Of a stretch of 64,000 bases of DNA, positions 34,770 to 41,215 are shown piece after piece; position 1 is the stretch's first letter; each line of letters begins with the position of its first letter. The DNA comes from an uncultured Paraglaciecola sp. (GTDB lineage Bacteria > Pseudomonadota > Gammaproteobacteria > Enterobacterales > Alteromonadaceae): assembly GCF_913058035.1 (NCBI RefSeq), contig NZ_CAJXPA010000005.1, positions 1-64,000 of the forward strand, in the 5' to 3' direction. Under the pieces are notes generated by a model, which was given only the letters and a program-made list of their open reading frames with translations, made no database searches and was not told the origin of the DNA. The position numbers and the translations under genes were made by a program.

Positions 34770-37514
34770 CTATCGCTTGCTCGAAGGAGACAGTAGGTTC
34801 GTATGATCAGTTTCCCAATGAGTAATCCATGCTGGTATATCACTAGCCAACATTGGTCGGGCAATGCCATAACCTTGAGCCAACTGACAACCCAATCCCA
34901 ATAGTGCTGTTCCATGAGCAATGGTTTCTACACCCTCAGCTATCACATCACGTCGGAATGCTTTGGCGAGACCTATTACGCCTTCAACAATCGCGCAATC
35001 GTCAATATCGTCTAGCATGTCGCGCACAAAGCTCTGATCGATTTTAATCAATTGTGCTGGCAAACGTCTCAGATGAGTAAGTGATGAATACCCAGTTCCA
35101 AAATCATCTAAAGCAAAGCGTAAGCCTAGCTTATGGCATGCGTTCATCGTTGAAGACACTTTGCTGATGTCATGTAACGCGCTGGTTTCCAGTATCTCAA
35201 ATTCTAAATAGTCTGGGCTAACCTCAGGATAAGCTGCCAATAGATCCGCTATGCGAGTTGCGAAATTACTTTGTTGTATTTGGTAACCACTGATATTGAC
35301 ACTGATAAGTAGATTAATGTCCATTTGTTGCCATTGACTTATTTGACTCAATGCACTGGTTATGACCCATTCACCTAGTTCTAGACTCAGGTCTTGACCT
35401 TCAATTACCGGTAAGAACTCTAAAGGTAGCAATAAACCAAGCACCGGATGTTGCCAGCGAATTAAAGCTTCTACGCCTATTACTGCACCAGTTTGCATGT
35501 TTACTTTTGGTTGGTAATGCAGCACAAATTCCCGCAATTTCATGGCTGAACGAATATCACCTATACTTTCTGACTGAGTTTTGCTCGCATTCTCTTGTTT
35601 GGTATCAAATAGGCGATAACGGTTTTTACCTTCTTGTTTAGCAATATACATAGCTTGGTCTGCATGGCGCATCAGTTGGTCTGCATCTGAGCCGTCTTGT
35701 GGATAAAGGGTAACACCAATACTTGCTGAAATATTCATAGCCTTACCATTCAAACTAACCGGGGCAGCCGCGGCTTTTAATAGACGATCTAGTACTGGCT
35801 TACTCTCCTCATAGCTTTCTAAATCTATCATTACAGCAATAAATTCATCACCGCCAATACGTGCTAACGTATCTCCTTCACGAAGCGCTTCTTTCATACG
35901 TTGAGACACAGTAATGAGTAATTCATCTCCCTCTTTATGGCCATGGTTGTCATTGACTTCTTTGAAGCCATCTAAATCCATAAACACCACTGCTAATGAC
36001 AGATTTCGACGTCGACATTGTGCCATAGCTTGGCTTAAACGTTCTGCCAATAATACACGGTTGGGCAGATTGGTCAGAACGTCATAGTAAGCAATATGTT
36101 CTAGTTGCCCCTGGTACGCCTTCATTGTTGTAATATCAGTGCATAATGAAACGTAATGCTGCACAAAACCGGCAGCATTTTTTACAGCACTAATGGTGAG
36201 CATTATGGGGAAAACCTCACCATTTTTTCGGCGATTCCATAGTTCGCCACGCCAGCGGCCTCGTGTTAGTAGTGTATGCCACATTTCGTTATAGAATTCT
36301 GGCGAGTGACGACCTGATTGCAGAATTTTTGGGTTTTTTCCTAACACTTCATCAGAGGTGTAACCCGTGATGCGGCTAAATGTGCTGTTAACTTCAGTAA
36401 TCTTAGCCGTGGCATCGGTAATCATGATGCCCTCATTGGCGTGGCTAAATACACTGGCCGCGCGCTGTAGTTTGCGCAGAAGAAGTTCCTTCTCTTTATT
36501 GGCGATGACTAATTCATGTGCCCGCTTGTCTTTCTCCTTGTTTTGAAAGGCAAGTTCATTGTTCGCAATAATTAACTCATCTGCTCGCTTATCTTTTTCT
36601 TCGTTTTGAAAAGCAAGTAATTTGTTCGCAACAATTAATTCATCTGCCCGTTTAGATTGCTCTTCTTTAGCAATGTCTAATTCATCTACTCGCTTAGCTT
36701 TCTCTTCTATAGCAATGTCTAGTTCATCTAACAGCTCAGCTTTCTCTTCTCTGACAATAACTAATTCATCTGCTCGTCTAGCTTTCTCTTCTCTGACAAC
36801 GACTAATTCATCTACTCGCTTAGCTGTCTCTTCTATAGCAATGTCTAGTTCATCTAACAGCTCAGCTTTTTCTTTTTTGGCAATGTCTAGTTCATCTGCT
36901 CGCTTAGCTTTCTCTTCTATAGCAATGTCTAGTTCATCTAACAGCTCAGCTTTCTCTTCTCTGACAATAACTAATTCATTTGCTCGTCTAGCTTTCTCTT
37001 CTTTGGCAATGACTAGTTCATCTGCTCGCTTAGCTTTCTCTTTTTTGGCAATGACTAATTCATCTACTCGCTTATCTTTTTCTTCGTTTTGAAAAGCAAT
37101 CTCTTCGTTAGCAATGTCCAGTTCATCAGCTCGAAAAGTGATGTCTTCGATAGCCAGTAAGATAATACTTTCTCTGTCTTCAGCTTGTGCCATTTGTCGA
37201 GCGTTCAACAGCAGGGTTCGACAACCAGTAAGAGCAAAATTGTGCTCAATCACAAAATCGTAAAAACTAGCCTTCTGCGGTAAAACAGTTTCTAGTAGTT
37301 TTCGCAATAAAGGGATTTCGAACTGTTGATTTCCTAGATCATAAATAAGTTGCCCAATGGTATTTTCAGGTTTAACCATAAAAAGCTTATAAAAAGCAGA
37401 GCTCACATTGACTACCCTTAAATCCTGATCCAACATTATTAAGGGTTCGCGCACCATGTTAATAACAATATTGACGTAATCAAACATATCCTGATTACTT
37501 TTTGAATCGAACAT
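34770..37514 (-). CDS. PAS-coiled coil-PAS-GGDEF-EAL cyclic-di-GMP enzyme
   Basis: About 914 residues from the ATG at 37514; the GTG just before it is not needed. Order: PAS-like domain (about 12-125); coiled-coil ladder of 14- and 21-residue repeats (about 128-344); second PAS with PAC (350-465); GGDEF domain with intact GGDEF (554-558) and the allosteric RxxD (545-548) five residues before it; EAL domain with EAL (682-684), DDFGTGYSS (803-811), IDQSFVRD and EGVETI. Both catalytic domains keep key motifs, so it could make and degrade c-di-GMP. No signal peptide or membrane helix is seen. It stands alone in the accessory block between recN and nadK. Confidence 0.93.
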   Translation of the reverse strand: MFDSKSNQDMFDYVNIVINMVREPLIMLDQDLRVVNVSSAFYKLFMVKPENTIGQLIYDLGNQQFEIPLLRKLLETVLPQKASFYDFVIEHNFALTGCRTLLLNARQMAQAEDRESIILLAIEDITFRADELDIANEEIAFQNEEKDKRVDELVIAKKEKAKRADELVIAKEEKARRANELVIVREEKAELLDELDIAIEEKAKRADELDIAKKEKAELLDELDIAIEETAKRVDELVVVREEKARRADELVIVREEKAELLDELDIAIEEKAKRVDELDIAKEEQSKRADELIVANKLLAFQNEEKDKRADELIIANNELAFQNKEKDKRAHELVIANKEKELLLRKLQRAASVFSHANEGIMITDATAKITEVNSTFSRITGYTSDEVLGKNPKILQSGRHSPEFYNEMWHTLLTRGRWRGELWNRRKNGEVFPIMLTISAVKNAAGFVQHYVSLCTDITTMKAYQGQLEHIAYYDVLTNLPNRVLLAERLSQAMAQCRRRNLSLAVVFMDLDGFKEVNDNHGHKEGDELLITVSQRMKEALREGDTLARIGGDEFIAVMIDLESYEESKPVLDRLLKAAAAPVSLNGKAMNISASIGVTLYPQDGSDADQLMRHADQAMYIAKQEGKNRYRLFDTKQENASKTQSESIGDIRSAMKLREFVLHYQPKVNMQTGAVIGVEALIRWQHPVLGLLLPLEFLPVIEGQDLSLELGEWVITSALSQISQWQQMDINLLISVNISGYQIQQSNFATRIADLLAAYPEVSPDYLEFEILETSALHDISKVSSTMNACHKLGLRFALDDFGTGYSSLTHLRRLPAQLIKIDQSFVRDMLDDIDDCAIVEGVIGLAKAFRRDVIAEGVETIAHGTALLGLGCQLAQGYGIARPMLASDIPAWITHWETDHTNLLSPSSKR
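36483..37133 (-). repeat. 42-bp coding repeat array (coiled-coil ladder)
   Basis: Inside the GGDEF-EAL gene, about ten 14-residue units of the type R-x-DEL-x-IA-x-EEKA-(K/R) are flanked by 21-residue variants containing AFQNEEKDK. Each unit is two heptads, 42 bases. Segments 36691-36792 and 36901-37002 are nearly identical over about 100 bases with one mismatch seen, offset exactly 210 bases (five units). This shows recent duplication within the array. Confidence 0.92.
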
Positions 37515-37517
37515 CAC

Positions 37518-38159: not shown

Positions 38160-38674
38160 ATGTGTTGTGATGTTTTAAGGTATGTACTCAATTTTTTTGG
38201 GTTTAGATTGGGTAAAAAAAGCATGATGTGTGTGCAAATTGATGACAGTGAGAAACATCGTTTTAACGTTGTTTCTCAGACACTCAAATCCATAGATAGC
38301 TGGTTAAATGAACTGCGTAAAAACGACAAGGGTAAGATTGCTGTTGCGATCGAATTGTTTAAAGGCCCTGATGTATATGCGTTGCATAAATACAGTTTCG
38401 TCAGCATCTTTCTTATCCATGTGTTAACACTGGCGCGTTATAGTCAGGCAATGTTTCCAGGTGGTGCCAAAGACGACCTATCTGATGTTGATTTGGCCTT
38501 AGATATGATATTTAACTACTCGAACAAAGTGAAAGCTTTACGTCCGAGTAGTCACCACAACTAAACAGTGGCGCCTTCAGTTTAGCAGCGCCATTCGGCA
38601 GTCGATATAAGGGTTACAAAGCTAATCGCCTCATAGATGCACTCAAGCAGTATTATGCGCAACAATGTGCAAAG
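38160..38674 (+). pseudogene. IS110-family transposase relic (N-terminal part)
   Basis: The frame from 38160 to 38564 reads like the N-terminal DEDD region of IS110 transposases: IELFKGPDVYALHKYSFVSI, then YSQAMFPGGAKDDLSDVDLA and KVKALRP. After its stop, another frame (38618-38674) continues the family pattern with KANRLIDALKQYYAQ. The rest of the protein, including the C-terminal transposase_20 domain, is missing. The element is dead. Family recognition is by eye and fairly strong. Confidence 0.75.
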
Positions 38675-39693: not shown

Positions 39694-40812
39694 ATGGTAA
39701 AGCAGTTCAATAAAATTACTCAAGCGTATTTCCCATACAGGCAGTTATTAATTCGCCAAAATGGTGAAATTAAATATCTCCCTATCACAACTTCTATTCA
39801 ACTTGTTTTGGCTTTATTTCTGTTAACTATTTTTTCTTGGTTTAGTTATTCAACCATCAAATATTTTTCTTTGAATGAAAAGGTCTCACAGGCTAAAGAC
39901 AATTTAAAACAATCTCAAACTGATTTAAATATGTTATCAGCAGAATACCAGACAAAAAACATACAATTAAATCAACAATTATCTCAACTGCAACAACAGC
40001 AAGTAATGTTGCAAGACTTGTTAGATTCACTGCCAGAAAAAATTGCACCTACCGATACATCAGATGCATCGAAGCCTATCAGTCATTCAAATGCTCATAT
40101 GCAAACTAATCATGATTCCGTTTTAAAAAGTTTAATTCAGGTAGAGAATCGACTGAATTCACTTGAAGCAGCGCAAAATAATAGCTTTGAAAACATGTCA
40201 TCAAGGATCAGAAAAAGAAAACAGCAACTGGTTAAAGTATTCAATTTAACGGGCATTAGTATAGATATGATTCACCATCAATCCACTCAACCCGTCTACG
40301 CCCAAGGGGGACCATTATTTGAACTTAGTAAAAATACAACAGATAAGTATCATCAACTTACTAATGAACTAATTGATTTAAGGCAGTTGGAGAATTCGCT
40401 AAAGAATGTGCCAGTAAAACTACCTGTAAAAGATTATTATATTTCGAGTGGATATGGTTATCGAAAAGACCCAATTTTTAATAAAAAAGCCATGCATAAA
40501 GGGATTGATCTGGCTGGATGGCACAAAACTGAGATTTATGCACCGGCCAATGGAAAAGTTAAACGAGCAGGTAAAAATGGCAGTTATGGTAATTATATAG
40601 AAATAGATCATCTAAATGGTTTTACCACACGCTATGGTCATTTATACAAGATAAAAGTTAAAGAAGGCGAATATGTTAGTGAGAATGTTGTTATCGGCCT
40701 TATGGGCAATACAGGGCGCAGCACCAGTACTCATTTGCATTATGAAGTTCTTTTTGATGCTAAGACAATCAATCCACTAAAACTTACAAAGGCGCTCAAA
40801 CATGTTCTCTAA
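39694..40812 (+). CDS. Membrane-anchored M23 peptidoglycan endopeptidase
   Basis: 372 residues. A short cytoplasmic N-terminus is followed by one membrane helix (about 33-55), then a Gln-rich coiled coil (60-112) and a second helical part (140-180). The C-terminal M23/LytM domain has all zinc and catalytic positions: MHKGIDL (H268, D272), YGHL (H316) and THLHYEV (H347, H349). It should cut peptide cross-links in the periplasm. The bactofilin gene starts inside its last 11 bases. Pairing of M23 peptidases with bactofilins is known from Helicobacter (Csd1-CcmA) and other curved or stalked bacteria, suggesting local cell-shape control. Confidence 0.92.
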   Translation: MVKQFNKITQAYFPYRQLLIRQNGEIKYLPITTSIQLVLALFLLTIFSWFSYSTIKYFSLNEKVSQAKDNLKQSQTDLNMLSAEYQTKNIQLNQQLSQLQQQQVMLQDLLDSLPEKIAPTDTSDASKPISHSNAHMQTNHDSVLKSLIQVENRLNSLEAAQNNSFENMSSRIRKRKQQLVKVFNLTGISIDMIHHQSTQPVYAQGGPLFELSKNTTDKYHQLTNELIDLRQLENSLKNVPVKLPVKDYYISSGYGYRKDPIFNKKAMHKGIDLAGWHKTEIYAPANGKVKRAGKNGSYGNYIEIDHLNGFTTRYGHLYKIKVKEGEYVSENVVIGLMGNTGRSTSTHLHYEVLFDAKTINPLKLTKALKHVL

Positions 40813-41215
40813 AAATAAAGACGCACAAAGCCCTGCAGTCATAAACAAAAATAGCACTCCCTCTATTATTGGAGGAGATGTGGTGATTCAAGGTAATGTT
40901 ACCAGTCAAGGTTTGGTGCAATTAGATGGTAAATTTGAAGGTGAAATTCGTATTCACAGCCTTACAGTTGGAGAACAAGGCTGGGTTGATGGTCTAATTT
41001 ACGCACAAGAAGTTGTCATTAAGGGTAAGGTTACTGGTGCTATTAATGCGATTGAAGTGACGTTAGAAAAGACAGCTGATGTCAGTGGTGACATTACGCA
41101 TCATTCCATTAGTATTTCAAGCGGAGCAAAAGTAAATGGAAGTATTACACAAATAAATGAAGAGCAGAAAGTAGCTGATCTGAACAGTAAAAAAGTATCT
41201 GTAAAATCCGGATAG
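40802..41215 (+). CDS. Bactofilin (polymer-forming cytoskeletal protein)
   Basis: 137 residues. The central bactofilin (DUF583) beta-helix spans about 20-115 and is built of short repeats (VVIQGNVTSQGLVQLDGKFE, EVVIKGKVTGAI, DVSGDITHHS, AKVNGSI). Polar tails flank it, as in BacA and CcmA. It forms cytosolic filaments that position cell-wall enzymes. Its start overlaps the M23 peptidase gene by 11 bases, so the pair is made together. Confidence 0.94.
   Translation: MFSKNKDAQSPAVINKNSTPSIIGGDVVIQGNVTSQGLVQLDGKFEGEIRIHSLTVGEQGWVDGLIYAQEVVIKGKVTGAINAIEVTLEKTADVSGDITHHSISISSGAKVNGSITQINEEQKVADLNSKKVSVKSG

Follow-up and report, generated by a model that had tools for sequence, protein, structure and literature searches.

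A 64,000-nucleotide stretch of the genome of an uncultured Paraglaciecola sp. (contig NZ_CAJXPA010000005.1; the whole stretch is called the window here) carries a gene for a GGDEF-EAL protein in which a long array of tandem 42- and 63-bp repeats lies between two PAS-type domains. Our results suggest that this array is probably a portable, tandemly amplified coiled-coil stalk with a fixed phase and a loose constraint on its length. The array consists of whole heptad units, the number of units differs between species while the phase stays constant, and arrays of the same kind are found in several other protein settings. These observations come from 29 array pieces and from a between-species comparison with one genome per species. 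The pieces represent at most 28 genes, as a frameshift divides the array of genome G002 into two pieces, and two cut pieces of genome G493 perhaps belong to one gene.

The array and its repeat units

The gene encodes, in order, a PAS-like domain, the repeat array, a PAS domain, a GGDEF domain and an EAL domain (Table 1), which agrees with a preliminary description of a coiled-coil-like array between two PAS domains. Pfam PAS matches fall in two stretches of the protein, the one at residues 362-463 being the stronger. Scanned alone, the N-terminal domain matches PAS, PAS_9 and PAS_4 at E values of 3e-4 to 5e-4, with 20.7-21.2 bits against curated cut-offs of 22.6-27; hence we term it PAS-like. 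A start at the GTG at 37517 would give 915 residues instead of 914. We prefer the ATG at 37514, where an aligned relative of 1225 residues also begins. GGDEF-EAL proteins are known by a list of motifs (GGDEF, an RxxD I-site, EAL and DDFGTGYSS). The window protein has GGDEF and EAL domains both above the Pfam cut-offs, as a dual-domain protein of this kind should, and its translation reads as having the catalytic motifs of the class (REGDTLARIGGDEF, EALIRW and DDFGTGYSSL).

Three types of heptad, namely 1 (like DELVIAN), 2 (like KELAFQN) and 3 (like KEKDKRA), combine into units of 14 and 21 residues, and parsing by heptads gives the window array as 123, ten times 13, 123, 123, 1. Where about ten 14-residue and three 21-residue units had been estimated there are exactly ten and three, plus a closing heptad. 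Tandem Repeats Finder reports periods of 42 (36636-37085), 63 (36510-36665) and 126 bases (36628-37085). A repeat of some 100 bases at an offset of 210 bases, i.e. five units, had also been noticed; the best 100-base stretch at this offset matches at 99 positions, with an exact run of 81 bases. This longest exact in-frame self-match far exceeds the maxima obtained in 300 codon shuffles (19 bases) and in 300 synonymous reshuffles that preserve the protein (35 bases), indicating a true duplication of a DNA block and not merely periodicity at the protein level. The earlier observation of the array was right in nearly every detail. Among the 29 array pieces, 21 have exact self-repeats of at least 40 bases, the longest of 395 bases. 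The ratio of nonsynonymous to synonymous differences per site (pN/pS) between units is below 1 in all 28 pieces that have unit pairs, a descriptive result, with some pieces having only one to three pairs; it ranges from 0 to 0.79, and the 0.52 of the window array is among the higher values.

There is a hydrophobic periodicity of seven residues, and helix breakers are scarce, as expected of a coiled coil: 5551 array residues include no proline and 30 glycines, and the strongest hydrophobic period is 3.5 in all four arrays tested, a period that a repeat in sevens favours of itself. At one heptad position, types 1 and 2 have leucine and type 3 has lysine; another likely core position holds asparagine in types 1 and 2 and alanine in type 3. 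It is possible that the array is a single charged helix (SAH) rather than a coiled coil, although the period of 3.5 argues against this, as does the leucine that two of the three heptad types share.

Constant phase at varying length

Species differ in the number of units, with the phase kept. Seven genes have both the N-terminal PAS-like domain and the second PAS domain in common, and the distance between the two, measured between a DIT-like motif and a phenylalanine in the second PAS, is 57, 71, 99, 106, 232 (the window), 281 or 547 residues. All seven values equal 1 modulo 7, so that the lengths differ by multiples of seven in the manner of heptad-quantised linkers. Three genes with a different N-terminal PAS have distances of 158, 158 and 333 residues (the last in G194), all 4 modulo 7. 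In G012 and G013, whose loci have neighbours in common, the distances are 99 and 106 residues, a difference of one heptad. Assuming a helix with 0.1485 nm per residue, the distances amount to 8.5 to 81 nm, and to 34.5 nm in the window.

Strict heptad motifs were found in register 704 times and out of register not once across the 29 array pieces, with one register in each. This count used the largest motif cluster of each protein, such that a shift beyond 45 unmatched residues would escape it, and left out an array in G1075 and the weak arrays of G157 and G000:C216, which have fewer than three motif matches in any open frame. The phase of the array relative to the second PAS domain is identical in all 14 proteins with that anchor, and its phase relative to a DxLT motif is identical in all 15 proteins of this type, an anchor that is not independent of the first. 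Where the array runs straight into GGDEF, three of three closely related proteins have an identical phase. The proposal that gain or loss of units preserves both the reading frame and the heptad phase is supported by these distances (7/7) and motifs (704/704).

Length also differs at a single locus. The sister species G281 and G291 have an array-PAS-GGDEF-EAL gene amid seven neighbours that are 91-98% identical; the cores of the two proteins are identical at 502 of 566 positions, and their arrays have 20 and 9 units, respectively. The array-only genes of these species have 12 and 16 units and five upstream neighbours in common (88 to 97% identical). An array kinase downstream of the array-only gene of G281 has no counterpart in the stretch of G291 that was examined. 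In principle, short-read assembly could have distorted the unit numbers by collapsing or misjoining repeats. The window genome is a draft of 4.9 Mb in 348 contigs, contigs of other genomes end inside arrays (G000:C49, G493:C111 and G493:C166), and the arrays of G226 and G194 are less safe, with exact self-repeats of 167 and 395 bases. However, arrays are also present in single-contig genomes (G012, G305, G404 and G147), and in the cases that matter most no exact self-repeat is long, the maximum being 81 bases in the window and 54 and 42 bases in the G281 and G291 pair, so that short reads should resolve the arrays of that pair. We therefore consider an assembly artefact highly unlikely.

Several points weigh against reading the array as a stalk whose phase is selected. 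When whole 42- or 63-bp units are duplicated the phase is kept for free, and constancy of phase is therefore weak evidence of selection. A yardstick for insertions and deletions (indels), derived from 15 PAS-GGDEF-EAL cores, gave pairwise counts of 86 gap events and 17,889 substitutions, or one event per 208 substitutions, and predicts about three small off-phase indels for the 625 residue differences between neighbouring units, of which none was seen; all of the gap events stem from just two distinct two-residue alignment gaps, and hence fewer than three are really to be expected and seeing none is uninformative. The lysine that replaces leucine in type 3 heptads indicates that pairing may be weak, and the composition of the units suggests a coiled coil that is weak or metastable. 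An AlphaFold model of window residues 1-470, made together with one relative, has the array as two long helices with a break only at 237-240; as a single-chain, sequence-poor model with a mean pLDDT of 51, it lends weak support to the helix.

The first two of these points also count in favour of neutral slippage, i.e. of a tolerated, self-expanding repeat that needs only a helix and an open frame and in which neither length nor phase is selected. The frequent exact self-repeats are in keeping with such a process, as is the difference in length at the syntenic locus of G281 and G291. So are the frameshifts that split the N-terminal part of two relatives, within the array in G002 (L122:4660-7298) and within the first PAS in G012 (L120), each due to decay or sequence error. 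Conversely, a neutral repeat does not readily account for pN/pS values below 1 between units, for the lack of proline or for the constant phase at the junctions, and we regard neutral slippage as a possible but somewhat unlikely explanation. From what is known of linkers of this kind, we infer that phase may be under selection.

Other settings, distribution and neighbourhood

Arrays are not confined to proteins with an N-terminal sensor. They lie before PAS-GGDEF-EAL without an upstream sensor in G281, G291, G088 and G226:C119, and directly before GGDEF-EAL in G404 and also in G493, where the gene is cut by the contig end. Others precede a PAS-PAS-histidine kinase (G107:C2, G281 and G194:C7), a kinase with a receiver (G147), and HisKA or HisKA_2 domains (G000:C143 and G012). 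In two species an array makes up a whole protein, read from stop to stop, of 216 (L178:2612-3259) or 277 residues (L181:2311-3141) with like ends; the gene next to the array-only gene of G281 encodes an array histidine kinase. The array is therefore a portable module, and its role is not solely to relay the signal of an N-terminal domain. In the sensorless GGDEF-EAL proteins (L179:2417, L182:515 and L183:473) the N-terminal array opens with MFGWIKNK-like or MFGLKTNN segments, which we would guess are perhaps membrane-binding ends. A quick tree of 41 GGDEF-EAL cores has at least three changes in the presence of the array on well-supported branches, and five in all. It includes 23 of the 26 loci offered as array-lacking, one of which (L021) is cut by a contig end, and its rows for G404 and G493 contain array residues, as there is no second PAS there.

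The array had been proposed to act as a tuner of signal transmission, and this proposal fared less well than the description of the repeats. In such a scheme, the number of units would set the control of the N-terminal PAS over GGDEF-EAL output, and lineages would adjust this control by gaining or losing units. What stands is the wide difference in unit number between species at constant phase, in a linker between sensor-like and output domains, and linker length is reported to influence dynamic range in phytochrome diguanylate cyclases (PMC9587094). A sensor-arm tuner alone would not account for arrays that are N-terminal without a sensor before PAS-GGDEF-EAL or GGDEF-EAL, that precede kinase domains or that stand alone. 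A role chiefly in tuning by length thus appears unlikely.

It is also conceivable that the array is a homotypic docking rod, in which case the arrays on kinases, GGDEF-EAL enzymes and array-only proteins of one cell would pair and gather these enzymes into complexes. Several genomes have more than one array gene (at least four in G000, on C5, C49, C143 and C194, and three each in G107 and G281), and the set in G281 includes the array-only protein adjoining an array kinase. However, the units of different proteins are hardly more alike within a genome than between genomes, with best DNA identities of 0.775 (15 pairs) and 0.747 (333 pairs) and residue identities of 0.673 and 0.694, respectively, and we give little credence to the docking rod as the main role of the array. 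The same values, with residue identity lower within genomes, do not support concerted exchange of arrays within a genome. A broader scheme, which we consider quite unlikely as a whole, would have a hypervariable, self-expanding coiled-coil module put on cyclic di-GMP (c-di-GMP) enzymes and histidine kinases in this order as an evolvable rod, fixed in phase and free in length, with arrays, including the array-only proteins, pairing so as to link enzymes and determine the distance between them.

A scan of named genome contigs gave 53 loci, and only Colwellia sp. C1TZA3 matches across residues 2-912; its protein has 1225 residues and an array far longer than that of the window, and a G226 protein has the same length and start. 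With the window's own genome counted throughout, the N-terminal PAS-like domain has matches in 9 of 295 family genomes (E <= 1e-15), and in G014, G182 and G284 it is followed by a kinase with no array. The array as query matches 4 of 22 genomes of the genus (1e-10), at least 14 of 395 of the family (1e-9), at least 5 of 394 of the order (1e-15) and at least 2 of 398 of the phylum (1e-15), both of the latter inside the order; the last three counts are minima because no more than 8 candidates were scored in each genome. Synteny with the window locus was not found in the stretches examined of G226, G250, G107, G012, G013, G002 and G000:C194. No plasmid copy of the array was found at E <= 1e-5, and no solved structure matched it at E <= 1 with the long relative as query. 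No Pfam repeat family scores above its cut-off over the array of the window protein. On the arrays of 10 relatives there are three Pfam matches, of PH_SLA1 in G147 (37.5 bits, cut-off 27) and in G404 (23.3 bits, cut-off 27) and of DUF1827 in G012 (24.6 bits, cut-off 23.4). No stretch passes alone, the matches in G147 and G012 exceed the whole-protein cut-off, and we take all three for effects of repetitive sequence. Searches by sequence string and by topic, with partial coverage of the literature, found no paper describing this tandem array.

An open reading frame (ORF) on the plus strand lies over the array, and antisense ORFs of a similar kind appear in the relatives G226, G002 and G107; the one in the window is probably an antisense shadow that arises from the way codons recur in the repeat. 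Near the array gene is a pair of genes for an M23 peptidase and a bactofilin, and in G281, G291 and G226:C119 a related pair adjoins another array-PAS-GGDEF-EAL gene. Linkage of this pair to array genes is at most a lead. The two are adjacent at four loci, yet an M23 match is present in 38 of 395 family genomes and 27 of 30 places examined have no GGDEF-EAL match within about 1.5 kb; the window gene is not among the other three. In G013 there is no GGDEF-EAL match near the pair within the 17 kb examined. A short ORF between the array gene and the M23 gene is probably a transposase remnant.

Table 1. Positions in the window of the array gene, its parts and nearby features
Feature	Position	Strand	Basis or remark
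Gene PAS-like - repeat array - PAS - GGDEF - EAL	34770..37514	minus	ORF and Pfam; 914 aa from ATG
N-terminal PAS-like domain, residues 1-127	37134..37514	minus	Pfam, domain scanned alone
Repeat array (30 heptads, single register; ten 14-aa units, three 21-aa units, one closing heptad)	36498..37127	minus	Tandem Repeats Finder and heptad parsing
First 21-residue unit	37065..37127	minus	Heptad string
Ten 14-residue units (42 bp each)	36645..37064	minus	Tandem Repeats Finder, heptad string
Two 21-residue units (63 bp each)	36519..36644	minus	Tandem Repeats Finder, heptad string
Closing single heptad	36498..36518	minus	Heptad string
81-base exact repeat, one copy	36689..36769	minus	Self-comparison at offset 210
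81-base exact repeat, other copy	36899..36979	minus	Offset 210 bases, five 42-bp units
Second PAS domain (PAS_9)	36129..36434	minus	Pfam; residues 362-463 in 915-residue numbering
GGDEF domain	35619..36092	minus	Pfam E 3.5e-50, 170 bits (cut-off 23.8); residues 476-633 in 915-residue numbering
EAL domain	34854..35558	minus	Pfam E 2.6e-65, 220 bits (cut-off 31.3); residues 654-888 in 915-residue numbering
Antisense ORF over array, 156 aa	36622..37092	plus	ORF list
Short ORF between array gene and M23 gene	38160-38564		IS110 transposase domain match, 29.2 (cut-off 29)
M23 peptidase and bactofilin gene pair	39694-40812 and 40802-41215		2.2 kb from array gene

Known linkers and the proposed stalk

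The array belongs with heptad-quantised linkers, a kind already known. Chemoreceptor length classes differ by heptads, a natural heptad-quantised change in a long signalling coiled coil, as here; unlike the window array, chemoreceptors form an antiparallel hairpin with paired indels and have no tandem DNA repeat. The histidine kinase YF1 is an engineered protein. In this LOV kinase, both activity and the response to light vary with a period of seven residues as the length of the linker changes (PMC6798134); it has a single linker and not a natural tandem array. The phytochrome-activated diguanylate cyclases (PadC) also have a coiled coil between sensor and GGDEF whose length often steps by seven and influences output. 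In 54% of PadCs the linker differs from a reference of 28 residues by a multiple of seven, and 38% lie at -4 (PMC9587094), whereas here there are 57-547 residues in tandem repeats between two PAS domains, none seen off-phase, and no phytochrome. The S-helix (PMC1592074) is likewise a helical dimer linker that joins signalling domains, including two PAS domains, but it has about 40 residues, mostly in five heptads, and a conserved ERT, while the window array runs to 30 heptads arranged as repeated units. The ERT signature is absent from the window array and from all 29 array pieces. Switching of coiled-coil register ahead of GGDEF is the subject of a further study (PMC12805367).

Our preferred explanation remains the portable stalk. 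Two chains would pair as a parallel coiled coil, and the stalk so formed would keep the PAS-GGDEF-EAL module dimeric with its rotational phase fixed; it could in principle pass a signal of register or rotation from the N-terminal PAS. Function would need the phase and constrain the length only loosely (between about 8 and 81 nm among relatives, supposing a full helix), in which case length would be at most a secondary tuner. The array would grow and shrink through in-register duplication of blocks, and the stalk may double as a spacer or docking rod.

In the linker studies cited here, phase matters and the linkers differ by a few heptads. The relatives of one enzyme described here, whose stalks range from 57 to 547 residues with the phase unchanged, together with the sensorless and array-only forms, provide a natural test set. 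Such a natural series makes it testable whether a coiled-coil signal is still transmitted across tens of nanometres, whether output is tuned by length itself and what effect the expansion of repeats has on signalling proteins.

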